Made by a program: the position numbers and the translations under genes. The notes under the pieces are model-generated. The model ran no database searches, was not told the DNA's origin, and saw only the letters and a program-made list of their open reading frames with translations. Of a stretch of DNA of 62,783 nt, positions 5,349-61,367 are shown one piece after another (position 1 is the first letter of the stretch; the number at the start of each line of letters is the position of its first letter). The DNA is from a virus. The stretch is from the IMG/VR virus record IMGVR_UViG_3300017963_000290, positions 1 through 62,783 of that record; one strand, written 5' to 3'.

Positions 5349-5392
5349 ATTGTACCACTAAACTTGTCAAAGGCAATAGGAAAAAAGTACTA
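5349..5392 (-). promoter_or_regulatory. Palindrome-type promoter for the 5303 gene
   Basis: Leftward: palindrome TAGTAC-TTTT-TTCCTA (5392-5377), -35 TTGCCT (5376-5371), 16-bp spacer and extended -10 AGTGGTACAAT (core 5354-5349). The TAG of the palindrome is also the stop codon of the 5390-5719 gene. Confidence 0.75.
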
Positions 5393-5719
5393 TGTCTGAA
5401 CAGTCTTGACTTCCCATTGCCCGGAGTCTGACTTGTAGGCTGTCCACGATTGTACAGATGTCCCAAACGGTGGATGACATTTTGAGCAAAGCCAGTTGCC
5501 GCCCGGACCTTGGTAGAAATCTGTCCCATAGCACCAGGGACACGCACCGGCTGCAAGCAACTCCTTCTTGTGCTTGTACTCTGCCGCCTTGCGCTCCAGG
5601 TAGGCGATCCGATCCTCTTTGGGTATAAAGGTTCCGGTAGGCGGATGCGGATGCAGTTTGTTCTGCATCTGCTCGTCCCACGTGTCCCGATCGTCAAGGT
5701 CTAGTATCAGTTGTCCCAT
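5390..5719 (-). CDS. Zinc-ribbon protein (109 aa)
   Basis: Two CxxC pairs (CPWCYGTDF and LCSKCHPP, about residues 60-83) spaced as in a zinc ribbon; acidic N-terminus with a short helix. ATG 5719 lies inside the end of the upstream gene. Its TAG stop forms part of a promoter palindrome. Confidence 0.75.
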   Translation of the reverse strand: MGQLILDLDDRDTWDEQMQNKLHPHPPTGTFIPKEDRIAYLERKAAEYKHKKELLAAGACPWCYGTDFYQGPGGNWLCSKCHPPFGTSVQSWTAYKSDSGQWEVKTVQT

Positions 5720-6096
5720 GGATATCTCCCCTTCATTTCAAAGAACTGTTTGACCAGCTTGATAGCGGAGTTGTCGTCAAGCCGCTCCTTGGTAAACTCG
5801 TAAACGACCCAGCCGCATGTTTGTGCGACGTTGGCAAAGTCTCGATCTCGCTGATACCCGTCCTTTCGCAGATGTGCGCCCCGGCTTTTTCCGCTCCCAT
5901 CCGTGACCCCACCCTGGATCATGACGACCAGATGGACCGGGTATCTCCAAGAAAAATCAGTCTCGACCCCATAAAGAACCTCATGCCATAGAGGCAGTGG
6001 GACGCTTGGCTCGTCTTTGCATTGCGCCCAAAATTGAAACTCCAGCGGACTCTCTCCTAAAATCTCGCGCTCTAGTTCAGCGATGTCGATAGACAT
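5707..6096 (-). CDS. Degenerate PD-(D/E)XK-type nuclease-like protein (129 aa)
   Basis: The middle of the protein follows the phage restriction-endonuclease-like/VSR-like pattern: hydrophobic strand, IQGG, a basic SRGAHLRKDGYQRD stretch, then a GW-V-Y-FT strand and a C-terminal helix. Where active members carry VEIQGG, this one has VMIQGG: the catalytic Glu position is Met (ATG codon near 5929), and no Asp sits in the preceding strand. It may be inactive, or the motif may have migrated. It lies next to the primase cluster, so a recombination or Holliday-junction role would fit an active homologue. Confidence 0.6.
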   Translation of the reverse strand: MSIDIAELEREILGESPLEFQFWAQCKDEPSVPLPLWHEVLYGVETDFSWRYPVHLVVMIQGGVTDGSGKSRGAHLRKDGYQRDRDFANVAQTCGWVVYEFTKERLDDNSAIKLVKQFFEMKGRYPWDN

Positions 6097-6406
6097 AAAT
6101 CAACTCCTGTATCTGTGCGCGCTCATACGTGCCCCACTTGCGTTTGGTCCACCTACGGCAGTAGTGCAGCCACACTCTAGGCGGCACCCCTTCGGATAAA
6201 GCAGCCTCTCCGAGCCGATGGCGCAAACGTGCAGTTTCATCTTGCCCCGCTTGCATCCGCTCCCACTGGCGCCGATGCTTGCTGCATGTCGTCGCCTTGT
6301 CCGTGATCGGGATGTCGCAGATGGGACACGTTTTCCCTAGTTTGTGCTGATAGTTGTATGAGTGCTTGGCCTCCACGTATCGGTTGCGGATCCTCTTCTT
6401 GGTCAT
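6077..6406 (-). CDS. Small zinc-finger protein (109 aa)
   Basis: CPICDIPI...TCSKHRR around residues 26-45 forms a Cys/His finger; the rest is basic and helical. ATG 6406 overlaps the primase stop (TGATG), so it is coupled to it; a longer in-frame start at 6433 lies inside the primase gene. It could be a DNA-binding cofactor of the primase; that is inference. Confidence 0.7.
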   Translation of the reverse strand: MTKKRIRNRYVEAKHSYNYQHKLGKTCPICDIPITDKATTCSKHRRQWERMQAGQDETARLRHRLGEAALSEGVPPRVWLHYCRRWTKRKWGTYERAQIQELIYVYRHR

Positions 6407-7395
6407 CACGTCCGCCCTTCCATCAGCGCCCATGATAGGTCTGCTTTCTCCGGCGCGTCATCCGGCCACTTGTACAGTACGGCGTTTGCTCCGGCTTTGC
6501 GGAGCAGGTTGGCGACTCGCGGGCCGTTCGCCCTGGGCAGCTTTTTGGCCTTGGGGTGATCCAAAAACCATTTCTCTGCCAGCTTGGATAAAAGCTTTTC
6601 GTTCGGCGTGCCATGCAGGTCGTTGTCGTACCAGACGATCACCCGTCCCGGCTTTTGAGAAACAATCCATTTCGTCCACGAATCGCGCCAGGTACCCGCC
6701 CCACCGGTCGACGCTACAGCGATCACACGCGGCGTCTCTTGCATGGCGAACATCGCATCTACAGGGCTTTCGCACACAATCACAATCGCGTTTTCCTCGT
6801 AGGGGATCAGCGATCCGCCCCACAAGGTTACTCGAGATCCCGCCGCTTGGTGCCACTTTTGTTCACAGCCGCATCCGCCGACCTTGAGCACGCGACCACG
6901 AAAGGCCACGATCCGCCCCATGGCATCGTAGCAGGGGTAGATCAAGCGGTCGTGCCGGCAACTGCAAGACGGCAAGACGCCAACCCCAAGGCTCCAGGCT
7001 TGAATTGTATCGAGCGTGAACGGAACATAATCGTTCCACAGTTTTTGTGTCTTGGGATGGTTCGTGAAGGCGCTCAGTGTCTCTTCTGCGTGTTGTTGCC
7101 AAAAGTGCGGGCGATGCGTGACCTTGGCCTTGCGCTTTACAGGCTCCCGGTAGGGCTCTGTGGGCCTTGGCGTGCCTAGACGCTCTGTGAGGTCTTTCAG
7201 CCCGCCGTGCTCTTGGCAGATAAAGCAGTTCCAACCACGTGGGGAGTAAGAGCACTTTTTCCGGTGCGCCTCCGCCCCGCAGTTTGGGCAATCGATCCAG
7301 CGCTCGTCCTTTTCCCCTTCCGGCTCAACCCCTAGCTGGTCATCAAGCGCTTGCAGCCTCCGGCTCACCCATTGCAGTCTCGTCGGCTCGTCCAT
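6406..7395 (-). CDS. DnaG-type primase (zinc finger plus TOPRIM), 329 aa
   Basis: Makes RNA primers for phage replication. N-terminal CHC2-like zinc finger: Cys36, Cys39, Cys57, Cys60 within WIDCPNCG and WNCFICQ. Then a primase core with a TOPRIM fold: VIVCESPVDAMFAM carries the catalytic Glu near residue 207, STGGAGTW follows, and VIVWYDNDLHG carries the metal-binding Asp pair. An extra Cys-rich loop (SCSCRHDR, GGCGCEQ) lies mid-protein. Shorter than bacterial DnaG and without a DnaB-binding C-terminus, as is usual in phages. Overlaps the upstream regulator gene by 53 bp. Confidence 0.88.
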   Translation of the reverse strand: MDEPTRLQWVSRRLQALDDQLGVEPEGEKDERWIDCPNCGAEAHRKKCSYSPRGWNCFICQEHGGLKDLTERLGTPRPTEPYREPVKRKAKVTHRPHFWQQHAEETLSAFTNHPKTQKLWNDYVPFTLDTIQAWSLGVGVLPSCSCRHDRLIYPCYDAMGRIVAFRGRVLKVGGCGCEQKWHQAAGSRVTLWGGSLIPYEENAIVIVCESPVDAMFAMQETPRVIAVASTGGAGTWRDSWTKWIVSQKPGRVIVWYDNDLHGTPNEKLLSKLAEKWFLDHPKAKKLPRANGPRVANLLRKAGANAVLYKWPDDAPEKADLSWALMEGRT

Positions 7396-7711
7396 GTTCC
7401 AACACTCCGTCTACATTCTCCAGCCACCGTGTCAGATCCACGGCGGCATGGACGTCTGTCTCGTCCTCGTCCATGTAGTACTGAATAGCTGCCTCTAGGA
7501 GAGGAAACAGCCGGGCCGTTTCCGACAAAAGCCGGATGATTACCCGGAACCCCTTTGACCTGTTTCCGTCTCCTACGCTCTCCAAAAACGCCACTTGCTT
7601 TTTGAGCAGGGAGAGGTTGAATCTCTCCCGCCTTGGTCCGACAATGCTGACCGTCGTTCTGTTTTCTCCATCCGCCCCCAATGACGGGCGACCTCCCCGG
7701 TTACTTTTCAT
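7343..7711 (-). CDS. Ribbon-helix-helix-like DNA-binding protein (122 aa), candidate regulator
   Basis: Basic N-terminus with GRPS, then a TTVSIVGPRRERFNLSLLKK strand-helix and a SKGFRVIIRLL helix, the layout of CopG/Arc-type ribbon-helix-helix proteins. The last 50 residues are acidic. ATG 7711 has an excellent AAAGGAG site. It is the first gene after the one leftward promoter in this block that has a perfect -35 and no palindrome, so it would be made without activation. That makes it a candidate for the factor that binds the TAGTAC palindrome; this is inference. Confidence 0.65.
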   Translation of the reverse strand: MKSNRGGRPSLGADGENRTTVSIVGPRRERFNLSLLKKQVAFLESVGDGNRSKGFRVIIRLLSETARLFPLLEAAIQYYMDEDETDVHAAVDLTRWLENVDGVLEHGRADETAMGEPEAASA

Positions 7712-7741
7712 GCCGATCTCCTTTCTCTGTATGGTGGTACT

Positions 7742-8310: not shown

Positions 8311-10052
8311 AGCCTCAACTCCCTTCTGGCAAAAAAGTGGGTGATGGCTTGAGCAGCGCGGCCCTTGCTCATGCCCTCTTCCCAGACACCCAAGCGCTTG
8401 CACAGCGATTCTTGCTTTTCGCTTGCGCTCTGCTTGCGCCACTTGGCCGATTTTTTACCAAGTACGTCGATTTGATGCAAGATGCAGAAATCTTCTGCAG
8501 CCTCGCTTGCATCTTCCCACGTCTCGTATGTGCCGATGTTTTCAGTGGGAGAGCGCTTTTTGATGTAGTAGAGCGAGAACCGAGCGGCACGGCGCAGCCG
8601 TTCATACTCGCGATTGTAGGCCGGTTTCCAGTGTTCCGTGCCGCGTAGCTCATCGGCTCTTTCCAGCCGGGATAGCGCAACCTCATCCGGCATGGTGATC
8701 GCCAGCGTTCCGCCTTCCCCCACGGTCGCGCTTGCCAACACCCCGTCAAAGGTCCAGGCCAGTCGGCTTGACGTGAGATAGTCCAAGACCTCGACAACGA
8801 TCTCGTCAGGGTCACCGTCAACGCCTTCACCTTTCGAGTTGATGCCAAACGCGCCCAAGATCACGCCAGAATCCGCGCCCTTTTCCTCAGCCTCTCGTTG
8901 TTCCTTGGGCTTGCCCAACATATCCCCGGCTTGCAGGATGTCCCGATCCCCGTCCGGCACAAAGTCAAGGATCGTCGCTACCTGCTTGCCGGGGTAGACG
9001 CGCAGCGCCCGGCCCATCATCTGCATGTAGACCAGATCCGACTTGGTTGGGCGGACCTGCACCAGGCACTCGATCTGGGGGGCGTCAAACCCCTCAGTCC
9101 AGAGCGCACAGTTGACCACACCGGTCGTCTCTCCGCTCTTGAATCGTCTCAGGATCGCTTGCCGTTCTGCCTTTGGCGTGGTTCCATCCGCTGACTCGAA
9201 CGCATACCCGGCCTCTCTGAATCGAGCAGCGAGTGAGTGGGCTTGTGCGACGGATGCCGTAAAGCAGATCGTCGGCTTGCCCTTACAGTGCTCTTCCCAC
9301 TCTGCAATGACCAGATCCTCCGCGTTCCGTGCTTTCAGCACGTCGCCTAGTTCCTCATCGTCCCACCCGGCGCCCACGCGCCGAACGTTCGAGATGTTGA
9401 CAGGGAGACGGAATCCGAGCGCCACAAACGGACACAGCGCGCCGCTCTTGATGCTTTTCTTGATGCCCATGCGATAGGCGACAGAATCATAGACGCGGCT
9501 CAGTCCGTCTCCATCCGTGCGCCTTGGGGTAGCAGTGACGCCAAGGTGCCGGATCTCCGGGTTGTGCTCTTTGAGCCGCGTGTACACGTCCAGGTAAGAG
9601 GGGGCAACGGAGTGATGGGCCTCGTCAGTGATCACGTGCGTGATCTTGCCGTGGGCAAAGATGCGATCCAGCCGCCTGTTTGCGTTCAAGGTCTGGATGG
9701 TCGCGATCACGACCTTGCAGCCGGCCATGTTCTCGTCCGCCATGACGACCCCGACGTCCGCGAGTTCAGGGAAAAACTTCAAGATGCGATCGCGGGGTTG
9801 GTAAATCAGTTCTTGCCGGTGGGCGATGACGAGCGCCCGGTCCTCTGGCCCAAGGTGTCGGGCCAGCGCGGCAAGAAAGATGATCGTCTTGCCGGTCCCG
9901 GTGGACAGCGCGGCAAGCGTCCACTTGCCATGATCCCACTCGGAGCAGATAGACGACACTGCCTCTTCTTGGTAGGGGCGGAGCGTCAGGGGCTCAAAGG
10001 TCAAGTTTAGACGTTCCGCGTCCGCTGTACCGTCAAATAGTGTTCTTTGCAT
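8307..10052 (-). CDS. SF2 DEAD/DEAH-box helicase (581 aa)
   Basis: ATP-dependent helicase of the phage T5 D10/RAD25-like type. Motif I STGTGKT (residues 50-56), motif II DEAH (143-146), motif III VTATPRR, and the second RecA domain with GFDAPQ and QMMGRALR (motif VI, arginine finger). A Q-motif-like RPYQEEAV lies at 25-32. The C-terminal 180 residues are specific to this branch. It sits upstream of the primase on the same strand, so it probably unwinds DNA during replication or recombination. ATG 10052 lies inside the end of the upstream zinc-ribbon gene. Confidence 0.92.
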   Translation of the reverse strand: MQRTLFDGTADAERLNLTFEPLTLRPYQEEAVSSICSEWDHGKWTLAALSTGTGKTIIFLAALARHLGPEDRALVIAHRQELIYQPRDRILKFFPELADVGVVMADENMAGCKVVIATIQTLNANRRLDRIFAHGKITHVITDEAHHSVAPSYLDVYTRLKEHNPEIRHLGVTATPRRTDGDGLSRVYDSVAYRMGIKKSIKSGALCPFVALGFRLPVNISNVRRVGAGWDDEELGDVLKARNAEDLVIAEWEEHCKGKPTICFTASVAQAHSLAARFREAGYAFESADGTTPKAERQAILRRFKSGETTGVVNCALWTEGFDAPQIECLVQVRPTKSDLVYMQMMGRALRVYPGKQVATILDFVPDGDRDILQAGDMLGKPKEQREAEEKGADSGVILGAFGINSKGEGVDGDPDEIVVEVLDYLTSSRLAWTFDGVLASATVGEGGTLAITMPDEVALSRLERADELRGTEHWKPAYNREYERLRRAARFSLYYIKKRSPTENIGTYETWEDASEAAEDFCILHQIDVLGKKSAKWRKQSASEKQESLCKRLGVWEEGMSKGRAAQAITHFFARRELRL

Positions 10053-10257
10053 AAAGCCTTTCCTTTCTCAGCGGGTGGTACAGATTACATCCGCAATGTG
10101 GGCACAGGTGGAGCAGGTGCGATGGTCGCATGTTACCAAGGGGCTTGCCGCAAATCGGACAGAGCCCCTTGCACTGGCAATCAAGGCAAAGCACCCGCTC
10201 CCATTCCCAAGTAGGGTTGGGAACCCAACCCTCGCCCTTACAGGTCGGGCACGTCAT
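10033..10257 (-). CDS. Small zinc-ribbon protein (74 aa)
   Basis: Four CxxC knuckles (CPTCKGEG, CLDCQCKG, CPICGKP, CPHCGC), the first like the DnaJ central zinc domain. Two zinc sites expected. Overlaps the helicase start by 20 bp, so probably coupled to it. Confidence 0.75.
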   Translation of the reverse strand: MTCPTCKGEGWVPNPTWEWERVLCLDCQCKGLCPICGKPLGNMRPSHLLHLCPHCGCNLYHPLRKERLYAKNTI

Positions 10258-10453
10258 CGAAAAGCCCCAAGTCGCCCAAGGTCCGGGCCAGGATCACCAG
10301 TTGATCCGTGTGGTGGGTCGCCAAAAACTCGTAATGCTTGGCAGCGCTCGCCCCTTCCGTCAAGGACGGATGGAGCAGAGTTTGCGCGTGCGGGGACAGC
10401 CTTTCGTCCCCGTCGATTCGTGCTTGCGCTTGCGTTCTGTAGTCGTTAGGCAT
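10238..10453 (-). CDS. Hypothetical protein (71 aa)
   Basis: Helical, His-rich middle, acidic end. ATG 10453 overlaps the stop of the upstream gene. No motif recognised. Confidence 0.6.
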   Translation of the reverse strand: MPNDYRTQAQARIDGDERLSPHAQTLLHPSLTEGASAAKHYEFLATHHTDQLVILARTLGDLGLFDDVPDL

Positions 10454-10710
10454 CAGTCGTCACTCTCCATAGAATCAAAAAGAGCCATATCCCCACCGCT
10501 CACAGGGGCCGGGGCGTATAGCTCGTTCAACCGGTCTTGCTCCAGCGGCAAGCCGGGCCGCTCGTGTTCTGTCCCGCAGACCTCACAGCGCAAGACCTCT
10601 TGCCACGTTCCGGCCTCGTCCAGAATCCAGTTGGTGTACCGGATGTGCCACGTCTGGGCCTTGCACTTGTGGCAGTCTGCTTTTGTCTTTGCGTCTTTTC
10701 GCTCTGGCAT
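10453..10710 (-). CDS. Zinc-ribbon protein (85 aa)
   Basis: Two Cys pairs (CHKCKAQTW and CEVCGTEH) about 30 residues apart form a zinc ribbon. I place the start at ATG 10710, behind GGAG; the longer in-frame ATG pair at 10755 lies in the -10 of the promoter and cannot be in the transcript. Confidence 0.75.
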   Translation of the reverse strand: MPERKDAKTKADCHKCKAQTWHIRYTNWILDEAGTWQEVLRCEVCGTEHERPGLPLEQDRLNELYAPAPVSGGDMALFDSMESDD

Positions 10711-10750
10711 TGGCAAAATCTCCAAGTCCCCCGTTTTGTTTCGTGGTACC

Positions 10751-10795
10751 ATCATACCACAGAACCAAGTCCTAGTACATAGTACTAGAGTACTA
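10751..10795 (-). promoter_or_regulatory. Palindrome-type promoter with a perfect 16-bp operator
   Basis: Leftward: TAGTAC-TCTA-GTACTA (10795-10780), poor -35 TGTACT (10779-10774), 17-bp spacer, -10 TGTGG-TATGAT (core 10756-10751). A second overlapping TAGTAC-containing half lies at 10773-10778. The first TAG is the stop codon of the 10793-11518 gene. Transcribes the zinc-ribbon genes and the helicase. Confidence 0.75.
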
Positions 10796-11518
10796 GGACG
10801 TTTGTTCTAGGGTCATCAGGGCGAAAAGGTCATCGACGGGGATAGGGATAGGGACAGGATCGGGCTCTACGATGTCTGCTTGGCCGGTGTAGAGCAAGAG
10901 CATCTTACGGGCAAGGTCAGGGGATATCTCGTCAGAGTAGCGCCGGGTCAAGTGGATTGTGCCCCACTTGCTGATCTCAAAAAAGGCGACATTTGCGCTC
11001 GTCCGGTTGCTGTTGAACCAATCGGGGGGATAGGGCTCCTTGCCGATCGCAGCGCATAGCTCGTTGACCATGGCAAGCGTGCGCTCCTGCTGCTCGATTG
11101 CGTCAAGCATCGTTTTCTCTAGCTTGTACCACTTGCGCAAGTAGGGGCGCAAGAAACGCTCGCTGATATTGCTTACCACGCTCTGCGGCGTGCGGTCGGC
11201 GGAGACAGTAGCGCGGTAGTTGGTCGTGTCCGTGTAACGGTTGGGCATGGACCAGCCGTACCGGTCGTCTCTGGGCCAATGAAAGGAAAAGATCAGCCGT
11301 CCGCTCTCCGGCACGTCTTTCTCTAGCGCCGGGCACCCTGGACAGATGACGCTCTCCGGGCTTGTGTGGAGCCCTACCATCGCCCCGGCGATGTGCTGCA
11401 AGTAGGTGTAGCGCACCTTTTCACGGTTCGCCCATTCTCCTTGCCCCAAACGCACAGGTGCATGATCCCATTCGATCATGCACCCGGCGATCGCGTCCCC
11501 CCACTGCCGTAGATTCAT
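10793..11518 (-). CDS. Hypothetical protein (241 aa)
   Basis: Soluble protein with one CPGC pair near residue 59, a helical middle and a Pro-rich tail (about 220-230). ATG 11518 overlaps the stop of the small gene upstream. No family recognised. Its stop is inside the promoter palindrome for the next operon. Confidence 0.75.
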   Translation of the reverse strand: MNLRQWGDAIAGCMIEWDHAPVRLGQGEWANREKVRYTYLQHIAGAMVGLHTSPESVICPGCPALEKDVPESGRLIFSFHWPRDDRYGWSMPNRYTDTTNYRATVSADRTPQSVVSNISERFLRPYLRKWYKLEKTMLDAIEQQERTLAMVNELCAAIGKEPYPPDWFNSNRTSANVAFFEISKWGTIHLTRRYSDEISPDLARKMLLLYTGQADIVEPDPVPIPIPVDDLFALMTLEQTS

Positions 11519-11676
11519 TTCTTGACTCCCAAAATGCGATAGCGGATCTCCGCGACGTCAGCTAGTTCGTGCCGCCAACCGTCAACCTCCATCCAGCCCT
11601 TGGGCAACAAGCGGACATAGTGCAGATTCTTGGTGTGAACAGCCGTGTTGTCCTTGAAAAGTACGCTTATGCGCAT
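11515..11676 (-). CDS. Small basic protein (53 aa)
   Basis: Reads MRISVLFKDNTAVHTKNL and ends ...ILGVKK; stop TGA 11515-11517 overlaps the ATG of the next gene (ATGA). Beta-rich with a Trp pair. It fills the gap and is coupled on both sides. No motif recognised. Confidence 0.65.
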   Translation of the reverse strand: MRISVLFKDNTAVHTKNLHYVRLLPKGWMEVDGWRHELADVAEIRYRILGVKK

Positions 11677-11677
11677 G

Positions 11678-11845
11678 TCAGTCGATCGCGCCGCTCTCCA
11701 AGTCCATGATCTCGTCAGCGGCCTCTTGGGGCGTCTTGTCGGTCAAGAAAGCCTCGTCCAGCACGTTCGCCCACGACACAAGCAGATCCTCGTCATCGCC
11801 AAGCAGTTGGAGAACCTTGTCATTCCAGGTATCGCGTTCTGTCAT
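11678..11845 (-). CDS. Small acidic protein (55 aa)
   Basis: Reads MTERDTWNDKVLQLLGDDED... to SGAID; TGA at 11678-11680, two bases before the next start. ATG 11845 follows GGCGGAG. Acidic and helical. It is the first gene of the operon driven from 11890-11934. Confidence 0.7.
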   Translation of the reverse strand: MTERDTWNDKVLQLLGDDEDLLVSWANVLDEAFLTDKTPQEAADEIMDLESGAID

Positions 11846-11889
11846 TGCTCCGCCTTTCGTGTATGGTGCACTTTGTTGTTTCTGCCTCT

Positions 11890-11934
11890 ATTGTACCGCG
11901 AAACCTACCCCGACTCAATAGTACTCTAGTAACC
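11890..11934 (-). promoter_or_regulatory. Palindrome-type promoter for the 11845 gene
   Basis: Leftward: GGTTAC-TAGA-GTACTA (11934-11919), -35 TTGAGT (11918-11913), 17-bp spacer, -10 CGCGG-TACAAT (core 11895-11890). The palindrome abuts the dispersed inverted repeat at 11934-11988. Confidence 0.75.
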
Positions 11935-12003
11935 CCCCTAAAATTTAGATCCATCATGTAAGATCTTATAGATCTAAATTTTAGGGGGAGTACTACAGTA
12001 CTA
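11934..12003. repeat. Dispersed inverted repeat (copy 1) plus adjoining palindrome
   Basis: An 18-bp perfect stem (11934-11951 with 11971-11988; core TAAAATTTAGATC / GATCTAAATTTTA) around a 19-nt loop that starts CATCATGTA. Immediately right is GAGTAC-TACA-GTACTA (11988-12003), a stand-alone copy of the operator palindrome. It ends one base before the stop of the 12005-14113 gene. Similar copies lie at 28810 and 50371, and a half copy at 60796. Confidence 0.85.
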
Positions 12004-12004
12004 C

Positions 12005-14113
12005 CTAGTCTTGAACGGGCTCTAGTATCCAGGTCGTCCGCCCATGGTCTGGAGAAAGACGCCGGTTGACTCTGGCCCACTGCTTGACCCGCGCCCGCTC
12101 TTGCGAGTGTTGGGCGATGTAGAATAGCCAGCGCTGTGCCGTGACGGTCGACGTCGCGACGTCCGCAGCCTCCGCGATCTGCTCTTTTGTGAGATAGGGT
12201 ACGCATGCGTCCCACTGCTCGTCAAGCCATTCTCGCAGCAGGAGCCACTTTTCCCACGTAACCCCCTCGTAGTAGGGCCGGCCAGTCTTGGTTTCCTTGC
12301 GCTCTCTGGATGGTGCCAGCCACGTGTCGTTGAGATTGGAAAAGATGCCGTCAAGGGGCTCGTCAGTCGGCAGAGAGGTCAAGAGCCACACGTCAGAGGG
12401 TTTGATGTTGGGCCTGACCCGGTGTACGGCTTGGGTGATCTCGTTGCGCCGAAACTCTTCCAGCACAACCCGCAGATGCGGATCGCTCCAAAACCCGGAG
12501 ATATCACGAACAGGGTAGCCCCTTGGATCCGGATCCTTCAACCTGTACTCCCGCTCTTTGCGCGTCCATGGCGGAGGCTTGCCCTCTTCTATGAAGGATT
12601 CCATCCGGTCAGGGAAGATGCTTGCGGCAAGATCCATCACTCCGCCAGTATTCGGACAGAACCCACCGGCCACGATCAGAGCGTCGGCGCTCTCCAGGTC
12701 GTTGGTGCCCCGGATGTCTCCAAAGTGGCGTGTGTTTCCGTTGAACCGGGGCACTGCTTCAAATTCCGGCTTTGCAGCCTTGAACGTGACGACGGCTACA
12801 CGCTTGCCTGGATAGTCGTCCGCGATAATCTGGGCGACGTCGAGCATTTGCCGCCCCTTCTTGCTCAGTTTCTTTTCTCCGTTCACCCCCTCGAACGCGC
12901 CGCCCATGCCGTTCAGTCGGCCCACGATCTGGAAGATGCGCCCCGGCCTTTCGACGGTCGGAGCATACAGCAAGACGTCACGATCAAAAAGGGCTTTGTA
13001 CATCTCTGGGGATCCGGTTGCGTCCAGGCAGATCAGAGGGCAGCTTTTCGACCAGCGGTCTTTTGCGTTGTGCCGGGAGAGGATGAGCAGACCGTCGCGG
13101 CTGACTCTCACTCTCGAGATCCAACGTGTCCATCCGCTCTTCCAGCACGTGAACTCTGGAGAGAGGGCAAGCAGCAGGTCTTGCACGTACCAAAAGGGCG
13201 CATTGTGGACCTCTCCAGGCGTGTCGATGATCGGGATATGGGGGATCCATTCTCCAAGGTTCTCTTGCTCGTCGTACACTGCCGCCAGATCGTTACCGAT
13301 CATACTAAACAGCTTTGGCCCCCAGAGGGGAGCGGTCGCCCGGCTTGCCAGGTATTCTAGCCCGTCAAGCAAGCGCTTCAAGGCCCCTTGGGCGCCGGGA
13401 ACGACGATCGACTTGGGGGGTACCCACTGCTTTTTGAGGAACGCGCCGAGCGGCATTTCGTCGCAGAATCCACACCAGTAGTCAGAGATCGCCATGCCGG
13501 TGATCAGGTGTTGGTGCATTCCAAAGATGATCCGCTCCTTGCGCCGGGCTTGCAGCCGGTAGGGGCAGTTGGAGAGATAGCCATCATGGTTGCACAGCGC
13601 TTTACATAGGTCGATCGACGGGTACCCGCGGTTCAACCAGGACATCATCTCCGGTGCATACCTGCACATGTCGTAAGCTTCCCCTCCGCCCAACGTGTGG
13701 GCAAAGGGCAGCCATTCATACCACTTTGACCAGTCAAAACCCTTGGTGCCCGCGATGTCGGCAAAAAAGTCATGGCGTGGACCTGCATAGAGGATACGGC
13801 CTCTCTCTGCAAGGTCTTGTGCGGCCTCGACCGCAGCGGTGGTCTTGCCCACGCCAGGGGGAACGCGCACAAGCAAAAGCCGGGGATCCGCTGACTCTAC
13901 ATAGTCTAGGATCGCCCGGCTGATCCCCTCTCTTACCTCGTCCAGAGGCAAGGGAGGGGGATGCTCGTCAAGCGTCGTTTTATCAGTCCACCCCAGATCG
14001 TAGGTGGACGGCTTGTCCGTCCACCATTCCGGTTCAGGGGGTATCCCATACGCTTGCTCGTCGTGTTCCCTTTTTTGCCGCAGGGCGTCAAGGAAGTCGT
14101 CAATGATGGTCAC
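12005..14113 (-). CDS. Probable Fe-S (DinG/XPD-like) SF2 helicase with C-terminal HTH (702 aa)
   Basis: Motif I VPPGVGKTT (residues 84-92); Walker B-like FCDEMP (Asp218-Glu219). Between them four cysteines (150, 170, 174, 183; ending NCPYRLQ) are placed as in Fe-S helicases of the XPD/DinG type, followed by a HQHLITG motif-II-preceding helix. LDATGSPEM (motif III/IV region) and QAVHRVRP (motif VI) complete the second RecA domain. The last 90 residues hold a helix-turn-helix (KEQIAEAADVATSTVTAQRW), so it may load at a phage-specific site. GTG start at 14113. Probably the replicative or origin helicase; the family is inferred from motifs. Confidence 0.7.
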   Translation of the reverse strand: MTIIDDFLDALRQKREHDEQAYGIPPEPEWWTDKPSTYDLGWTDKTTLDEHPPPLPLDEVREGISRAILDYVESADPRLLLVRVPPGVGKTTAAVEAAQDLAERGRILYAGPRHDFFADIAGTKGFDWSKWYEWLPFAHTLGGGEAYDMCRYAPEMMSWLNRGYPSIDLCKALCNHDGYLSNCPYRLQARRKERIIFGMHQHLITGMAISDYWCGFCDEMPLGAFLKKQWVPPKSIVVPGAQGALKRLLDGLEYLASRATAPLWGPKLFSMIGNDLAAVYDEQENLGEWIPHIPIIDTPGEVHNAPFWYVQDLLLALSPEFTCWKSGWTRWISRVRVSRDGLLILSRHNAKDRWSKSCPLICLDATGSPEMYKALFDRDVLLYAPTVERPGRIFQIVGRLNGMGGAFEGVNGEKKLSKKGRQMLDVAQIIADDYPGKRVAVVTFKAAKPEFEAVPRFNGNTRHFGDIRGTNDLESADALIVAGGFCPNTGGVMDLAASIFPDRMESFIEEGKPPPWTRKEREYRLKDPDPRGYPVRDISGFWSDPHLRVVLEEFRRNEITQAVHRVRPNIKPSDVWLLTSLPTDEPLDGIFSNLNDTWLAPSRERKETKTGRPYYEGVTWEKWLLLREWLDEQWDACVPYLTKEQIAEAADVATSTVTAQRWLFYIAQHSQERARVKQWARVNRRLSPDHGRTTWILEPVQD

Positions 14114-14116
14114 AGG

Positions 14117-14485
14117 CTAGTATCCTGATTTGCCTCTGCGTACAGCCGTCGCGTGCTTTTGCTTTCCGCCAAAGGGGCGGTCAGGAATTGGGGGGCGATA
14201 TCTCTTGTGCATGGTCTGGCTCTCATTGCCGCACTCTGGGCATTTCCAGCGAAACGACCATTTGCCGTCAAGTGTCCAGCCAATGTAGACCAGATTGACC
14301 TTGCACGTGAGGCATTGCGTATCAAACCAGCGGTTGGTGCGCCACGTGCCGTCGATCTTTACTCTTGAGAGCGGGGGTTGGTCTACGCGGACCTCTGTCT
14401 CCAAGAGACACAGATCGTCAGGGTGCCAATCCGTGTCGCGGGGTGCCGGGACGTTCCCGGCGTGCAAAACAAACAGTTTGCCCAT
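14117..14485 (-). CDS. Zinc-ribbon protein (122 aa)
   Basis: CLTCKVNL and CPECGNES (about residues 56-84) form a zinc ribbon; basic, Arg/Lys-rich C-terminus. ATG 14485 has a GAAAGGAT site; an upstream in-frame ATG at 14515 does not. Three bases before the GTG of the helicase gene, so co-transcribed with it. Confidence 0.75.
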   Translation of the reverse strand: MGKLFVLHAGNVPAPRDTDWHPDDLCLLETEVRVDQPPLSRVKIDGTWRTNRWFDTQCLTCKVNLVYIGWTLDGKWSFRWKCPECGNESQTMHKRYRPPIPDRPFGGKQKHATAVRRGKSGY

Positions 14486-14539
14486 GGTCTCGATCCTTTC
14501 AGTGAGAAGAAACAAGTGGGGCGGGGTGCCCCACTTGTC

Positions 14540-14584
14540 ATGGTACCATGTCCGCTCTATAAGATCAATGGGACATGGGTACTA
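14540..14584 (-). promoter_or_regulatory. Palindrome-type promoter for the Fe-S helicase operon
   Basis: Leftward: TAGTAC-CCAT-GTCCCA (14584-14569), -35 TTGATC (14568-14563), 17-bp spacer, -10 ATGG-TACCAT (core 14545-14540). The TAG is the stop of the 14582-15091 gene. A CAAGTGGGG/CCCCACTTG hairpin (14513-14537) begins at about +1 and would cap the 5' end of the mRNA. Confidence 0.7.
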
Positions 14585-15091
14585 GTATATTTCGCTGTAC
14601 CACTTGTCGGCCTCAGTCGCGGCCTTGTCATGAATCCACTCAGGTAAAGGCTCAGAGAGCACGCGCAAGAGGGGCGGATAGTAGAGATAGGGCAGCGGTC
14701 GCCACCAAAAGCCGTTGTTTTGATCGAACCGGGGCGCGATCTTGTACGGCGGCTTGCAGTGTACCATCTCCCACTTGAACCGCACCACGTCAAAGTCAGG
14801 CTTGCGCCAATGTTTGGCCTCTCGATCGCTCATGCCCCCTTGGGTGTAGTGTTCGACGTAGACACAGCCGGTGAACGGACCAAGGCCATGCTCTGCCATC
14901 AGCGCGTGCGCGATGTAGTTTGCCCCGTTCGTCACGCTGAACCCGTCATAGGGATAGGGTTCCCCGACGATGACCACCTTTTGACCGGGGAACATAAAGG
15001 ACGGCAGTTCGCCGGGCTCCAAGACAGTGATGTCCGCACGCGGCTGAACAAGCTTGTTAGGTGCATCATAGAGTAGTTCAAACTGCTCCAT
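14582..15091 (-). CDS. Hypothetical protein (169 aa)
   Basis: ATG 15091 follows AAGGAG. A FPGQKVVIVGEPYPYDG strand-turn near residues 35-52 and an aromatic-rich C-terminus (FWWRPLPYLYYPP). The layout loosely suggests an alpha/beta nucleotide-linked enzyme, but I recognise no family. Confidence 0.7.
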   Translation of the reverse strand: MEQFELLYDAPNKLVQPRADITVLEPGELPSFMFPGQKVVIVGEPYPYDGFSVTNGANYIAHALMAEHGLGPFTGCVYVEHYTQGGMSDREAKHWRKPDFDVVRFKWEMVHCKPPYKIAPRFDQNNGFWWRPLPYLYYPPLLRVLSEPLPEWIHDKAATEADKWYSEIY

Positions 15092-15524
15092 CGGCGTCTC
15101 CTTCCAAGATCGTGCCAACCATGCCCGATATGCCGAATTGAGCGGCGGCAGCGTTCAAGGCTGTGAGATAGTCTGTATTAACCGGCTTATCGCCCTCGAT
15201 TTGTTGGGCGATGACCCCGGCCAGGGCGATGATGACAGCCATTGCGCTCCCGGTCTGCGAGTCGGTCAGTTCGCACGGCTCGTTGATCGTGTAGGGCTTG
15301 AGTGCGCCTAGTAACAGCACTGCTTTCTCTGGGGGCACATAGTACTCTTGCGGCTTGATGTTGGCAGGGTCACGGTTGACGGGGGAGATCCAAACTCCCC
15401 CGTCCTGCATCTGCGTGATTCCGGCGATCTCCGAGATATTGATCCAGGCGTTTCTGATTTGCCGGTCGGCGCATTCTTCCACAAAATCGCTCTTGCGTAC
15501 CGGCCCGGTCAGTTTGATAAACAC
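15078..15524 (-). CDS. Hypothetical protein (148 aa)
   Basis: GTG 15524 has a strong AAAGGAG site. N-terminal 70 residues form a beta-rich unit (WINISEIAGI, GGVWISPVNRD); the rest is Ala-rich and helical. No motif recognised. Overlaps the next gene by 14 bp. Confidence 0.7.
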   Translation of the reverse strand: MFIKLTGPVRKSDFVEECADRQIRNAWINISEIAGITQMQDGGVWISPVNRDPANIKPQEYYVPPEKAVLLLGALKPYTINEPCELTDSQTGSAMAVIIALAGVIAQQIEGDKPVNTDYLTALNAAAAQFGISGMVGTILEGDADGAV

Positions 15525-15542
15525 GGTGGCTCCTTTCTGTGC

Positions 15543-16856
15543 CTAGAACGGCACAAGCAGAGATTCAGGCGCGGTTTCCGCAAACTCGCGGAGTTTCGCC
15601 ATGACCTCTTCCAGGTTGTCCGGCCCGACCTTTTCGTACCCAAGCCCTCCTGCCACTTGCAGGATGCGCGGGAAGTCGGCCTTGCCGGATGGGGCGTAGA
15701 CAGCCTTGTGTTCTTCTGCGAGCTTGGTCGCCTCTCCGCGCCAGGCGTTCATGTTCATGCCCGCGCCCATCTTGGCAGCTTTGGCCTCTGGGTCATAGTC
15801 CAGCGAAAAACCGTTTTCGTCGCCCGGTTCGTCGTCCATTGCGTCGAACAGCGTGGCGTCAAGCTCTCCGGGTTCTTGTCCAGGGGGTGGCTCTGCTTTC
15901 GGCTTGGGCTTCTTGGCAGGGGGCTTTTTCTTGGGCGTGCGCTTGGGCTTCTCCGCAGCCGGGGGCTCTGGTTCGGGGGATCCACCGCCACCGTCAAACT
16001 CAGGGTGCTTGCCCCGATCTGGCGCGATTGTGGGATCGCTCTCTCCAGTCAGATCGTCGTCTGCATAGTCCATCTCAGCGTCGATGAATGCCCCGGTTTC
16101 GACGTCCAACAAGCGAACGTTGTCGCCCGCCGACAGTGCCAAGGCTTCGTTTTGCGCGCCGATGAGCGCCGATTGCATGTACACAGCACTCCGGGCAATC
16201 CCGATGTCATAGTGCGGGTAACGGTTGCCTGACCCCGGATCGGCCCTTTTGATCTCGAATCTCCAGAGCATCACAAGGTAGTGCTCCAGCGTGGCGGCCT
16301 CTCCGTACTTCCGCTCTTGCTCCGTCCAGAGCCCGTACAGGAATTGAGCAATGCGGGTGATGTCGTTGATCCCGCCCGTCGAGATCATCACCGGCTGAGA
16401 GTACCCGGCCTTGGCAAGCCGGACAAGCCGGACGTACAGCCGGCCCTTGTTCTGCTCCCACTTGCGATTTGGCAGGTCCGCGTGCGCGATCTGCTCGTCG
16501 GCCCGCGCCGTGTAGCGCTTTTCCTCTGGTATCCAGCGCAGAACGCTTTTTTCCCCATCGGAGCGCCACCAGAACCGGCCCCCCTCTCCAGGCTCCCGGC
16601 ACTCGATCCACGTCTCAAAGCACTGCTCGATCGTGGGGTAGGCCAAGGCCGCGTCAGGGAGTTCGGTCGGCTTTTCGCCGTAGATCTCGTGAAAGGCAGC
16701 GGCAGAGCCGGGGATGCGCTCGACAAATCGCCAGTGCGGTTGTTCTTTTCCGACCCCACGGTTAGGCTTTTTTGCCCCTTTCATCAGCGTGCCGCACGTT
16801 GGGAAACGGTAACCCCGCGACAGCGTTTCTCGATCCGACATGTTCTTGATTGGCAT
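15543..16856 (-). CDS. Phage protein with conserved N-terminal domain and acidic/basic low-complexity linker (437 aa)
   Basis: Residues 1 to about 230 are a folded domain (GYRFPTCGTLMKG, GEKPTELPDAALAYPT, a Gly-rich RFWW strand). Its layout recalls large phage DNA-metabolism or recombination-directionality-type proteins, but the match is weak. Residues about 290-345 form a Pro/Lys-rich linker, and the C-terminus is a small helical domain. ATG 16856 follows AAAGGGC. The start overlaps the upstream gene by 95 bp. Candidate for a single-strand-binding or recombination factor; unproven. Confidence 0.65.
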   Translation of the reverse strand: MPIKNMSDRETLSRGYRFPTCGTLMKGAKKPNRGVGKEQPHWRFVERIPGSAAAFHEIYGEKPTELPDAALAYPTIEQCFETWIECREPGEGGRFWWRSDGEKSVLRWIPEEKRYTARADEQIAHADLPNRKWEQNKGRLYVRLVRLAKAGYSQPVMISTGGINDITRIAQFLYGLWTEQERKYGEAATLEHYLVMLWRFEIKRADPGSGNRYPHYDIGIARSAVYMQSALIGAQNEALALSAGDNVRLLDVETGAFIDAEMDYADDDLTGESDPTIAPDRGKHPEFDGGGGSPEPEPPAAEKPKRTPKKKPPAKKPKPKAEPPPGQEPGELDATLFDAMDDEPGDENGFSLDYDPEAKAAKMGAGMNMNAWRGEATKLAEEHKAVYAPSGKADFPRILQVAGGLGYEKVGPDNLEEVMAKLREFAETAPESLLVPF

Positions 16857-17106
16857 CAGTTTGCCCTTTCTGCGGCTCTGTCTTGGGACAGAGCCGCCAC
16901 TTGCTGATATTGGGCTCGAACACACGCATGAGCAGTTCGAGCGTCGGCAGATCCTCTATGTGAATGGTCATGCTCTCGTCAGGGGATCGGATCTGATAGG
17001 GCTCCATGTCGCCCGGTGTAGCGATCGCGACATAGGTAAATCGCCCGTCACTGACCGTCATCCCCCGGCCTATGTTCTTCTCAATCCGCTTGCTGACGAT
17101 GGTCAT
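16762..17106 (-). CDS. Hypothetical protein (114 aa)
   Basis: ATG 17106 has an AAAGGAG site. The first 75 residues look folded; the last 40 overlap the next gene in another frame and are low in secondary-structure signal, so the 3' part is less certain. Confidence 0.6.
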   Translation of the reverse strand: MTIVSKRIEKNIGRGMTVSDGRFTYVAIATPGDMEPYQIRSPDESMTIHIEDLPTLELLMRVFEPNISKWRLCPKTEPQKGQTDANQEHVGSRNAVAGLPFPNVRHADERGKKA

Positions 17107-17114
17107 TCTCCTTT

Positions 17115-17405
17115 CTAGTCGTCCCGGTCGATCGGCTTGCCCATAAACAGTTCTTGGACCTTTGGATCAACCGAGTGATCGGCGTTGACGTAGGACAGTT
17201 GGACGAACGGCAAAAATGGCTTGGCCCGGTCCCGAACGGCGGCGGCGGCGGAATCTTGCAGGTAGGCTATAGCGGTGTCGATGTCCTCTCCAGCCTCTAC
17301 GTCTACCTCTGTCTGGATCTCTACTCCGAGCCGCACGCTGTTATAGTCGGTCAAGCCCAACGTTTGGATATGTGTCACCTTGACGATGACAGGTGTACTT
17401 TCCAT
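17115..17405 (-). CDS. Hypothetical protein (96 aa)
   Basis: ATG 17405 follows GAAAGGGG. Alternating strands and one helix, acidic middle. No motif. Same operon as the genes on either side. Confidence 0.7.
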   Translation of the reverse strand: MESTPVIVKVTHIQTLGLTDYNSVRLGVEIQTEVDVEAGEDIDTAIAYLQDSAAAAVRDRAKPFLPFVQLSYVNADHSVDPKVQELFMGKPIDRDD

Positions 17406-17447
17406 CCCAACCCCTTTCTACGCCTGATCGCCTTGCAATCAGGAAGT

Positions 17448-17474
17448 GAGACGCCGGGACATTCCCGGCGTCTC
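17448..17474 (-). terminator. Hairpin between two leftward genes
   Basis: Perfect 12-bp stem GAGACGCCGGGA / TCCCGGCGTCTC with a 3-nt loop. No T-tract leftward, so it may be an mRNA processing or stability hairpin rather than a full terminator. Confidence 0.55.
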
Positions 17475-17482
17475 GTTGCGGT

Positions 17483-17884: not shown

Positions 17885-18016
17885 CGTGTAACCCCTTTCG
17901 GTTCCCCCCGGTCTAAAACCCCCGACCTTGAGAGCGTTCAGCCAACATGAACGCCCCCAAGAGCGGGCTTTTTAGTGCCCAGGTGCATCGGTTCAATCCC
18001 CCTTCCCTTGTGTGAT
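17885..18016 (-). promoter_or_regulatory. 5' leader with hairpin
   Basis: Between the transcription start expected near 18016 and the GTG at 17884. It holds a GCGTTCA-(7 nt)-TGAACGC hairpin (17934-17954) and a C/G-rich stretch but no open frame of note. Long for this phage, so regulation in the leader is possible. Confidence 0.4.
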
Positions 18017-18022
18017 GCCTCT

Positions 18023-18067
18023 AGGGTACCACACAAAGAGACATCACACAATAGGAAAAGAGTACTA
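18023..18067 (-). promoter_or_regulatory. Palindrome-type promoter for the 17884 operon
   Basis: Leftward: TAGTAC-TCTT-TTCCTA (18067-18052), -35 TTGTGT (18051-18046), 17-bp spacer, -10 TGTGG-TACCCT (core 18028-18023). Confidence 0.7.
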
Positions 18068-18077
18068 GGTCAGCGGA

Positions 18078-18408: not shown

Positions 18409-18421
18409 GTAGGCGTTTGGC

Positions 18422-18699: not shown

Positions 18700-18744
18700 A
18701 TTGTACCACGAAACACACCTTGAGTATATAGCTCTATAGTACCA
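18700..18744 (-). promoter_or_regulatory. Palindrome-type promoter, leftward member of a divergent pair
   Basis: Leftward: TGGTAC-TATA-GAGCTA (18744-18729), -35 TATACT (18728-18723), 17-bp spacer, -10 CGTGG-TACAAT (core 18705-18700). Confidence 0.75.
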
Positions 18745-18756: not shown

Positions 18757-18801
18757 TAGTACCCTAGAGCTATTGAGTGACTATACCTTTCGTGGTACAA
18801 T
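18757..18801 (+). promoter_or_regulatory. Palindrome-type promoter, rightward member of a divergent pair
   Basis: TAGTAC-CCTA-GAGCTA (18757-18772), -35 TTGAGT (18773-18778), 17-bp spacer, -10 CGTGG-TACAAT (core 18796-18801). Only 12 bp separate its palindrome from that of the leftward promoter, so one bound factor could serve both blocks. Confidence 0.8.
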
Positions 18802-20243: not shown

Positions 20244-20288
20244 TAGTACTTTTTTCCTATTGAGCGCAAAGGGGTTATGTGGTACCAT
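20244..20288 (+). promoter_or_regulatory. Palindrome-type promoter for the 20337 operon
   Basis: TAGTAC-TTTT-TTCCTA (20244-20259), -35 TTGAGC (20260-20265), 17-bp spacer, -10 TGTGG-TACCAT (core 20283-20288). Followed by the common TCACACGAAAGGG leader. Confidence 0.75.
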
Positions 20289-22064: not shown

Positions 22065-22266
22065 AGAGTCTGTTGTAGAGGATATGGCAAGAATGAGCTT
22101 GGTACTGCTCGAATGCGGGCATTATGCCTACGCAAAGGGCTACCCCGAAACCCCTGCAAGCCCGAGCTATATCTGCGCTATATGTCGTGGCGTTCGGCTG
22201 ACTGATGTCGAGAAACGTCGGCGTGACAAACTCGGCATAGAGGGGCGCGGAGTGATTATAGACTAG
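22051..22266 (+). CDS. Small zinc-ribbon protein (71 aa)
   Basis: ECGHYAYAK and ICAICRGVR form one Cys/His zinc site. Start at ATG 22051 or 22054, behind GAAGG. Its TAG stop is the first half of the promoter palindrome at 22264. Confidence 0.65.
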   Translation: MMPVKESVVEDMARMSLVLLECGHYAYAKGYPETPASPSYICAICRGVRLTDVEKRRRDKLGIEGRGVIID

Positions 22267-22308
22267 TACCAAAGTACTATGTCCGACAATAGACGTTATA
22301 GGACATAG
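22264..22308 (+). promoter_or_regulatory. Perfect operator palindrome with a decayed promoter
   Basis: TAGTAC-CAAA-GTACTA (22264-22279) is a perfect inverted repeat. The expected -35 (TGTCCG) and -10 (ACATAG after TATAGG) at the usual spacing are poor, so the promoter may be dead, as may the gene behind it. Confidence 0.5.
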
Positions 22309-22938: not shown

Positions 22939-23119
22939 TTCTGCTCTTGTTGAGACTTTGCGCGCCAAGGCCGAATCCCTGCTTGACAAGATGGAAGGCA
23001 TGACCAAGCCAAGCCCGTAGCACTCTGCTGCTCTATCCGTTCTGGCCGACATCGAGCACGAGATCGGGCGACTGGTCGACGTGCCGGACGTGCAAAAGGT
23101 CGAGCGGAAAAAGCAGTAG
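22931..23119 (+). pseudogene. Small helical protein with an in-frame amber codon
   Basis: ATG 22931 (overlapping the previous stop) reads 29 residues ending KPSP, then TAG at 23018-23020, and goes on in the same frame for 32 residues (HSAALSVLADIEHEIGRL...) to the real stop TAG 23117-23119. Both halves are amphipathic helices. A single C-to-T change (CAG to TAG) would explain it; amber readthrough would give a 62-residue protein. The final stop lies in the next promoter palindrome. Confidence 0.55.
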
Positions 23120-23161
23120 TACCTTTTTCCTATTCCCCTTGCCCCGGTTCTGTGGTACAAT
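23117..23161 (+). promoter_or_regulatory. Palindrome-type promoter for the 23199 operon
   Basis: TAGTAC-CTTT-TTCCTA (23117-23132), -35 TTCCCC (23133-23138, poor), 17-bp spacer, -10 TGTGG-TACAAT (core 23156-23161). Confidence 0.75.
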
Positions 23162-24016: not shown

Positions 24017-24437
24017 CACCTGCTCAAACTATCCCAAAGGCACCAGGCCGGAAGATAACTTTGAGTGCGAAGCAGCCGGGTTGTTTGTGCAATGCTCGAT
24101 GCATAGCTGCGAGTTTTACAACCCAACTCCAGAGGCCTACGGCGACGGCTCCCCTGCTCCGCTTGGGCCGGATGACCAAACGGTGTACTTTGTCATTTGC
24201 GAGCCCGGAGACCCAGAAAAGGCAAATCGGGAATGGCCCTGGTTTCCAGATGGGCAAGCGTTCTATCTTGGCCTGGATCCGCAATACGACGATCTAGAGG
24301 TCTGGCTGTGGTTCGTCCGGGGCAACGTCGATGTGTACGGGCTGGCAAATATGCCCTTTGTGCGCGATATCCAACCGCTGGCCCGTCGTCTCGCAAGCCA
24401 AGTGCCCCCATTGCCGGTTTCTTTTTCGGATCAGTAG
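24003..24437 (+). CDS. Cys-rich protein (144 aa)
   Basis: CNTCSNYPKG and CSMHSCEFYN in the first 40 residues give a Cys-rich knuckle; acidic middle, hydrophobic strand. Starts inside the previous gene. Its TAG stop belongs to the next promoter palindrome. Confidence 0.7.
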   Translation: MRICNTCSNYPKGTRPEDNFECEAAGLFVQCSMHSCEFYNPTPEAYGDGSPAPLGPDDQTVYFVICEPGDPEKANREWPWFPDGQAFYLGLDPQYDDLEVWLWFVRGNVDVYGLANMPFVRDIQPLARRLASQVPPLPVSFSDQ

Positions 24438-24479
24438 TACCAGAGAGCTATTGCAAGTGATGGGGTTTTGTGGTAGAAT
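24435..24479 (+). promoter_or_regulatory. Palindrome-type promoter for the 24616 operon
   Basis: TAGTAC-CAGA-GAGCTA (24435-24450), -35 TTGCAA (24451-24456), 17-bp spacer, -10 TGTGG-TAGAAT (core 24474-24479). It is the last clear promoter before the terminase genes. Confidence 0.75.
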
Positions 24480-31620: not shown

Positions 31621-31845
31621 ATGAGCCCACTGTCAGAGAACGCAACAAAAATCCGCTCATGGGAGGATGTTGCGCAGCGAATGCGCAATGCCACGAACGG
31701 AAGCAGGGGGGTATCGTTCGTGACCATCCGTGTCTTTTTGAACCAAGGCCGCCCGGTGGCCTGGATATCCCCAGAGGTACAGCACGTAGAGCCGAAAGGG
31801 GACGCCGCTGGCTTTGCAGAATGGCTTGAAACGCTCTGCACTTGA
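31621..31845 (+). CDS. Hypothetical protein (74 aa)
   Basis: ATG 31621 follows AAAGGCG. Small, mixed fold, no motif. The strong promoter at 31842 begins inside its last codons. Confidence 0.6.
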   Translation: MSPLSENATKIRSWEDVAQRMRNATNGSRGVSFVTIRVFLNQGRPVAWISPEVQHVEPKGDAAGFAEWLETLCT

Positions 31846-31871
31846 CAGCATGCGCAGAATCGTGGTACAAT
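31842..31871 (+). promoter_or_regulatory. Consensus promoter (TTGACA - 18 - TACAAT) for the structural operon
   Basis: TTGACA 31842-31847, 18-bp spacer (ending GCGCAGAATCGTGG), TACAAT 31866-31871. Ten of its spacer bases match those of the leftward promoter at 2854. No palindrome. Probably the strongest promoter of the genome. Confidence 0.88.
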
Positions 31872-60813: not shown

Positions 60814-60850
60814 AAAAGAGCCCTTGCCGGTCATCGGCAAGGGCTCTTTT
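60814..60850. terminator. Bidirectional terminator between convergent operons
   Basis: AAAAGAGCCCTTGCCG pairs perfectly with CGGCAAGGGCTCTTTT (16 bp), with A-tract on the left and T-tract on the right, so it works both ways. Confidence 0.85.
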
Positions 60851-60863
60851 GCTTGGGTGATGT

Positions 60864-61193
60864 CTAGTACTCGTAAAATATCTCAAACCGATCGTTTGGC
60901 CTGGTATGGTTCAATCGATCGCGTTCGTGCTTGCAAGATTCAAAAGACTCAGAAAACCACATGTTAGCGTACAATGGGAACCACGTGGTAAGCATATACT
61001 CTACAGAAGAGCCCTTGCCGGATGCATGATCATCGTAGTTGGGCGGTTCTCTATCTGGGCGGATCTCGCTATACAATGCCGCAAGCTTGCACCATGCATC
61101 TTGTGCGTCAAGGTTCGCATGCTTGTAATGTGAGACGATCGCCTTGATGTCGTCCGTGTGTTGGCCCTTGGTTTGCTCTACCCAATATGGCAT
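60864..61193 (-). CDS. Hypothetical protein (109 aa)
   Basis: ATG 61193 follows ACACACACGAAAGGAA, the same leader as the J-domain gene; the in-frame ATG upstream is in the promoter. Helical and charged, with no motif. Its promoter-leader is nearly identical to that of the J-domain gene at 18796-18840. Confidence 0.7.
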   Translation of the reverse strand: MPYWVEQTKGQHTDDIKAIVSHYKHANLDAQDAWCKLAALYSEIRPDREPPNYDDHASGKGSSVEYMLTTWFPLYANMWFSESFESCKHERDRLNHTRPNDRFEIFYEY

Positions 61194-61236
61194 CGTTTTT
61201 TCCTTTCGTGTGTGTGTTCTCATTTCCCCCAAGGCC

Positions 61237-61281
61237 ATTGTACCACACAACCCCATGCTAGTCGATGGGACTTGGGTACTA
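61237..61281 (-). promoter_or_regulatory. Palindrome-type promoter for the 61193 gene
   Basis: Leftward: TAGTAC-CCAA-GTCCCA (61281-61266), -35 TCGACT (61265-61260, poor), 17-bp spacer, -10 TGTGG-TACAAT (core 61242-61237). Confidence 0.75.
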
Positions 61282-61293
61282 ACTTTTTGTCAC

Positions 61294-61367
61294 TAGTACC
61301 CTAGTACTATGTGTAAAATGTTTGTAACCCTAGTACCATTCCATGCATGGTGGTTACGTGGTACAAT
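61294..61367 (+). promoter_or_regulatory. Palindrome-type promoter with two operators for the repeat-protein gene
   Basis: A perfect TAGTAC-CCTA-GTACTA (61294-61309) and, 29 bp on, a weak TGTAAC-CCTA-GTACCA (61323-61338) that abuts -35 TTCCAT (61339-61344); 17-bp spacer; -10 CGTGG-TACAAT (core 61362-61367). Followed by TCACACGAAAGG. Confidence 0.75.

Follow-up and report, generated by a model that had tools for sequence, protein, structure and literature searches.

At the PRM promoter of phage lambda, the phage-encoded cI protein acts as a class II activator bound immediately before the -35 element, and in Bacillus the DegS-DegU pair is a two-component system. Host response regulators are also known to act on phage promoters. 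In Alphaproteobacteria, the host's CtrA was shown to bind promoters of pilitropic and flagellotropic phages that are unrelated to each other, and to regulate them, activating some of these promoters and repressing one (Mascolo et al., 2022; PMC9437464), and the same article cites the phi29 family as phages on whose promoters the host response regulator Spo0A acts. The NarL dimer binds 16-bp palindromes of 7-2-7 layout, and at the ogt1052 promoter of Escherichia coli one such site, placed 32 bp before the -10 element, is enough for activation (PMC9314961, PMC4549865). Here we describe a 16-bp palindrome, TAGTACN4GTACTA, which adjoins the -35 of a dozen promoters in a virus record of 62,783 nt (IMG/VR record IMGVR_UViG_3300017963_000290), called the window below. 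On balance, sequence comparison suggests that the palindrome is probably the operator of a host response regulator of the NarL/DegU type, which would activate the non-structural genes of the phage in class II fashion.

Each of these systems resembles the window in part. The apparent parallel is with the CtrA phages (phiCbK, vB_BsubS-Delta and Cp1R7A-A1; PMC9437464), since in both cases an appendage-linked host response regulator apparently has its sites in the promoters of unrelated phages. The present case differs in its likely phylum, Chloroflexota, in having a candidate of the NarL/DegU rather than the CtrA type, and in a 16-bp palindrome kept at one fixed place by the -35 of a dozen promoters. 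The likeness lies in the logic, the CtrA phages being tropic for pili or flagella and the present ones only possibly so. With the NarL promoters of E. coli, the window shares a 16-bp inverted repeat whose center lies some 32 bp before the -10, but the half-site is TAGTACY rather than a heptamer as in TACCCCTAAAGGGGTA, the organism is another, and activation is presumed here. As in Bacillus DegS-DegU, the kinase has a DegS domain and the motif-based regulon includes secreted subtilases, but the operon described here includes Flp pilin and Tad genes, and its motif is TAGTACN4GTACTA. The operator position is similar to that used by lambda cI at PRM, although the factor is here probably the host's, and whereas we propose activation, Spo0A halts the lytic cycle of phi29-family phages in sporulation, as cited in PMC9437464. 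In a limited literature search, neither a comparable motif nor such a regulator turned up, and likewise nothing on DegU-type control of Chloroflexota pili. If true, the proposal would provide a second, independent case of phages reading a host pilus regulator, in a distant phylum and with another regulator family, and it would support such coupling as a general strategy instead of a peculiarity of CtrA. It also puts forward a DNA motif and a candidate regulator for the Tad pili and secreted proteases of Anaerolineae, of which few members have been cultured.

Palindrome promoters of the window

With up to three mismatches, TAGTACN4GTACTA occurs 30 times in the window against 6.1 expected, and none of the shuffled sequences reached 30. 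The original prediction, made by a reader of the DNA letters, had placed the palindrome upstream of the -35 at about a dozen promoters. All of its coordinates carry the palindrome or a one-sided variant, and 12 promoters consist of a full or one-sided palindrome, a -35 adjoining it and an extended -10 near GTGGTACAAT at a fixed spacing, an arrangement found zero times in shuffles; the site at 22264 is the one that dropped out, having no promoter at this distance. The distance from palindrome to -10 is 23 nt in 11 of the 12 promoters and 22 nt in the remaining one, at 5358 on the minus strand. The center of the 16-bp palindrome therefore lies 31.5 bp upstream of the -10 (8+23 nt in those 11). 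Under a strict extended -10, nine window sites stand at 23 nt, and every other distance has at most three; the three at 51 nt correspond to 23+28, i.e., to the neighboring palindrome. The mean number at 23 nt in 60 dinucleotide shuffles was 0.0.

The promoter-distal half of the palindrome is nearly constant (TAGTAC); the half nearer the promoter is variable (GTACTA, TTCCTA, GAGCTA, GTCCCA, GTACCA). The 16-bp, 7-2-7 inverted repeat that characterizes NarL-type promoters is present in the perfect copies, found at 10780, 22264 and 61294. A pyrimidine occupies the seventh position in all 12 window sites, in 20 of 24 sites of other phages and in 15 of 18 host sites (47 of the 54 tabulated overall). 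As first noted, the -35 of the window's palindrome promoters is poor or partial: on average, 3.5 of its six positions agree with TTGACA, TTG is retained in 7/12, and TTGAC in 0/12. Three promoters lacking the palindrome had been set against these, and they do have TTGACA, with 17-18 nt spacing (2863 and 7751 on the minus strand, 31862 on the plus strand). The first spans 2854..2883 and the last 31842..31871, ahead of the structural module; both have 18 nt between TTGACA and TACAAT. The 12 palindrome promoters head non-structural transcription units on both strands.

Promoters of the likely host class with the same architecture

Relatives of the window's terminase in bacterial genomes are mostly from Chloroflexota, including Anaerolineales and Ornatilinea apprima, a member of the class Anaerolineae (NCBI). 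The host of the window phage is thus likely to belong to the Chloroflexota, class Anaerolineae. We searched 396 genomes, a set whose class assignment rests on the O. apprima genome at its center, for the palindrome followed by TTG, 20 nt and TANNNT with at most one mismatch. This full pattern occurs 47 times in 40 of the 396 genomes, against 2 occurrences of the reversed pattern, and once among 119 genomes of Bacillota. A Flp pilin or TadE motif lies no more than 900 nt downstream of 14 of 30 host sites, compared to 22 of 3000 random stretches, and most of the pilins begin about 50-110 nt past the -10; related subtilases follow 6 of the 30 sites. The -35 of the tabulated host promoters scores a mean of 3.83/6, and none has TTGAC. 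As the -35 boxes are weak both in the window and in these host promoters, the simplest interpretation is class II activation. In three host genomes (loci L165, L167 and L168), the palindrome promoter precedes related small helix-turn-helix proteins, which by eye resemble the N-termini of IS630-type transposases.

A candidate regulator

Five host contigs (L177-L181) share one gene order: a response regulator of the NarL/LuxR type, a kinase of about 354-363 amino acids, a palindrome promoter, and Flp pilin and/or TadE genes; one such regulator is encoded at L178:583-1272. Pfam assigns Response_reg and GerE to the regulator, HisKA_3, HATPase_c and DegS to the kinase, and Flp_Fap, TadE and Peptidase_S8 to the downstream proteins. 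Among solved structures, the closest sequence relatives of the regulator are VraR and NarL. A promoter with the site is present at 9 of 30 regulator loci, where 60 motifs with permuted halves gave 0; one of these sites is TAGTACTTTTTTCCTA-TTG, identical to the one-sided phage variant at 20244. The motif, along with genomic linkage at the Flp/TadE genes, is the basis for suggesting that the regulator controls host pili. An ortholog of the regulator occurs in 28 of 32 motif-bearing genomes compared to 12 of 32 others (p=3.5e-5), but the cut-off (at least 285 bits, with paralogs at up to 254) was chosen post hoc at a visible gap and the 32 comparison genomes were picked at list intervals, so the difference is supporting evidence and no clean test.

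A matrix trained solely on 16 host promoters, and never on the window, was run over the window, and its nine top matches are nine of the 12 phage promoters. The host sites had been preselected for palindrome, TTG and -10, which biases the matrix columns there. The other three phage promoters scored 16.1 (5357), 15.5 and 14.7. Outside the promoters, one site scored 20.3, namely the central palindrome of the group near 61.3 kb, at 61294, and the reversed sequence gave a single match, at 14.1.

From these observations we propose that the palindrome would be the operator of a host response regulator of the NarL/LuxR family, part of a DegSU-like two-component system which in Anaerolineae is found ahead of Flp/Tad pilus genes. 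A regulator dimer would bind the 7-2-7-like site TAGTACY-NN-RGTACTA, whose center is 31.5 bp from the -10 on its upstream side (about position -43), with TAGTACYNNRGTACTA as the proposed model. Once bound, it would contact RNA polymerase where the -35 begins to adjoin the site, giving class II activation. This operator would have been set by the phage before at least 12 promoters of non-structural genes. In promoters close to its structural module, the -35 is an ordinary TTGACA, and the operator is absent. Since what looks like the host's address tag for pilus and protease genes is found in about 12 phage promoters, a host two-component regulator probably times the early genes. The class II positive control first suggested for these promoters is still the reading that best fits their anatomy. 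The lambda cI comparison made with it is apt for the operator position, but it implied a phage-encoded factor, and the evidence favors a NarL/DegU-type response regulator of the host.

The motif in other phages

No near DNA relative of window positions 10001-30000 was found among deposited phages. A scan of viral contigs for part of the architecture revealed further phages that carry it. G002 has five perfect TAGTACCAGAGTACTA sites adjoining TTGACA, with 23 nt to TATAAT, and G003, G004, G005 and G006 have likewise the palindrome promoter architecture. The loci examined contain 97 distinct TTGAC promoters; in 11 of them a perfect palindrome, TAGTACN4GTACTA every time, stops right at the -35, and other offsets, up to 39, have at most one each. 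Several further records hold multiple sites, and the reversed-pattern control gave zero in viral records. The further motif-bearing records run from 13 to 112 kb, with a guanine plus cytosine (G+C) fraction of 0.32 to 0.58 in the stretches examined. Sites of the regulator type are concentrated in the promoters of unrelated phages.

TTGAC is present in 14 of the 24 tabulated promoters of other phages versus 0 of 12 in the window, which means that the palindrome is no general stand-in for a good -35. The idea that it replaces the -35 as a rule is accordingly rejected, perfect TTGAC(A) being found beside it in several unrelated phages. Strong promoters of this kind are also what one might see if the same host response regulator repressed phage promoters, so that early genes stayed silent for as long as it was active. 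Sigma could be blocked by a 16-bp site that extends up to the -35, and CtrA represses one phage promoter even as it activates others. We nevertheless judge repression unlikely, as the distance to the -10 does not vary, window promoters and tabulated host promoters alike have a weak -35, and a NarL site at such a distance activates.

The near-identical duplicated promoters of G002 and G005 might instead suggest promoter-borne repeats with no regulatory protein behind them. This is highly improbable, since the spacers from palindrome to -10 show no sequence relationship, yet phages and hosts that are themselves unrelated retain the palindrome and its distance.

The LexA (SOS) box of the host is another palindrome to consider. 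Cyanobacterial LexA boxes resemble RGTACNNNDGTWCB, and the arm-N4-arm layout is in common with the motif described here. However, in the host group the box between the -35 and -10 of lexA is GAAC-N4-GTTC, not GTAC, and the LexA reading was therefore rejected as very improbable. Separately, a phage record (G002, ~32400-32700, mirrored in G003 at ~2370-2550) contains an array of some six such GAACN4GTTC boxes. In two further records (G420, 38030-38074, and G425, 6516-6560), TAGAACTAATGTTCTA adjoins TTGACA at the 23-nt distance; this palindrome is intermediate between the TAGTAC motif and the LexA box.

A host or a phage factor

Many scattered operators in one phage are reminiscent of lambda cI or of phage operator arrays, where the regulator, be it an immunity repressor or an early activator, is encoded by the phage. 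At 61.27-61.34 kb, three operators accompany a divergent promoter pair at intervals of 28-29 bp; these and the site arrays of G005 and G419 would suit such an arrangement. What makes it doubtful, and in our estimate less probable than repression by the host regulator, is that the window holds no GerE-family protein or relative of the regulator, that blastp revealed no protein family which the majority of the motif-bearing phages share, and that the architecture is identical at host pilin and protease genes. The regulator is found in host-class genomes, and a search with its profile detected no relative in 15 motif-bearing viral records. Such an empty result carries little weight unless a positive control succeeds, and the profile did match 58 of 64 host genomes. 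PHROGs returned just two weak matches for ten window proteins, both to families of unknown function. The widest family, DUF4417, was rejected as the common factor; it is found in 6 of 17 records but is absent from several many-site phages. In the window, it is represented by g03 (1175-2332), with relatives in five other phage records of the set.

Control by a host NarL/DegU-type regulator must also be weighed against several findings, besides the post hoc ortholog cut-off. The window's host was deduced from terminase relatives in metagenome-assembled genomes, about half of them Chloroflexota, and motif-bearing phages with G+C as low as 0.32 may have other hosts. The regulator is present in 12 of 32 genomes where the strict motif was not found, and Anaerolineae have many NarL-family paralogs, another of which could bind the site. 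TTGAC beside the palindrome in other phages suits repression too. Finally, most of the window's proteins are uncharacterised, and so an unrecognised phage protein could have equal specificity.

A broader extension of the host-regulator proposal is offered tentatively. Many unrelated Chloroflexota phages might independently have tied their early promoters to the host two-component system for Flp/Tad pili and secreted proteases, and so would develop only in the attached, pilus-bearing state that allows entry and spread.

Individual promoters and neighboring elements

Seven of the 12 promoters are read on the minus strand. The one with the 22-nt distance, at 5349..5392, has its palindrome at 5377-5392 (TAGTACTTTTTTCCTA) and TACAAT as its -10; the distance is 23 nt in those that follow. 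The perfect palindrome at 10780-10795 belongs to the promoter at 10751..10795 (TATGAT), upstream of g17, g16 and the helicase gene g15, and a one-sided copy at 11919-11934 to that at 11890..11934 (TACAAT). Upstream of g22 and g21, the promoter at 14540..14584 combines TAGTACCCATGTCCCA (14569-14584) with TACCAT, and at 18023..18067, TAGTACTCTTTTCCTA (18052-18067) is combined with TACCCT. The minus-strand promoter at 18700..18744 (TGGTACTATAGAGCTA at 18729-18744; TACAAT) diverges from the plus-strand one at 18757..18801 (TAGTACCCTAGAGCTA at 18757-18772; TACAAT). The latter is upstream of g30 (18848-19381), the first gene behind it, whose product has a DnaJ (J) domain.

Also on the plus strand, the promoter at 20244..20288 has TAGTACTTTTTTCCTA at 20244-20259 and TACCAT, and its 16 bp recur identically at a host promoter (L192). 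The best match of the host-derived matrix is at 23117..23161, with TAGTACCTTTTTCCTA (23117-23132) and TACAAT, and TAGTACCAGAGAGCTA (24435-24450) precedes TAGAAT at 24435..24479. Near the end of the record, a minus-strand promoter upstream of g81 (61237..61281; TAGTACCCAAGTCCCA at 61266-61281) and a plus-strand one upstream of g82 (61323..61367; TGTAACCCTAGTACCA at 61323-61338), both with TACAAT, diverge from either side of the perfect palindrome at 61294..61309, which lies 28 and 29 bp from its neighbors. Like the perfect copy at 22264..22279 and the palindromes at 11988 and 28859, this middle site has no promoter at the fixed distance.

An inverted-repeat element with arms TTAGATCC...GATCTAA occurs at 11919-12003 and 28806-28874 of the window and at 4505-4590 of G012. 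The copy at 11919-12003 forms a near-perfect 85-nt hairpin (-47.3 kcal/mol, z -10.4) and, like the G012 element, has TAGTAC palindromes as its two ends. It could be a terminator or an element resembling a miniature inverted-repeat transposable element (MITE). A gene with long coding repeats of the PEADE and ADETD types spans the record ends (61412-62782 joined to 2-160). As both ends fall within one coding repeat, the window may be a circular genome that was broken in the repeat.

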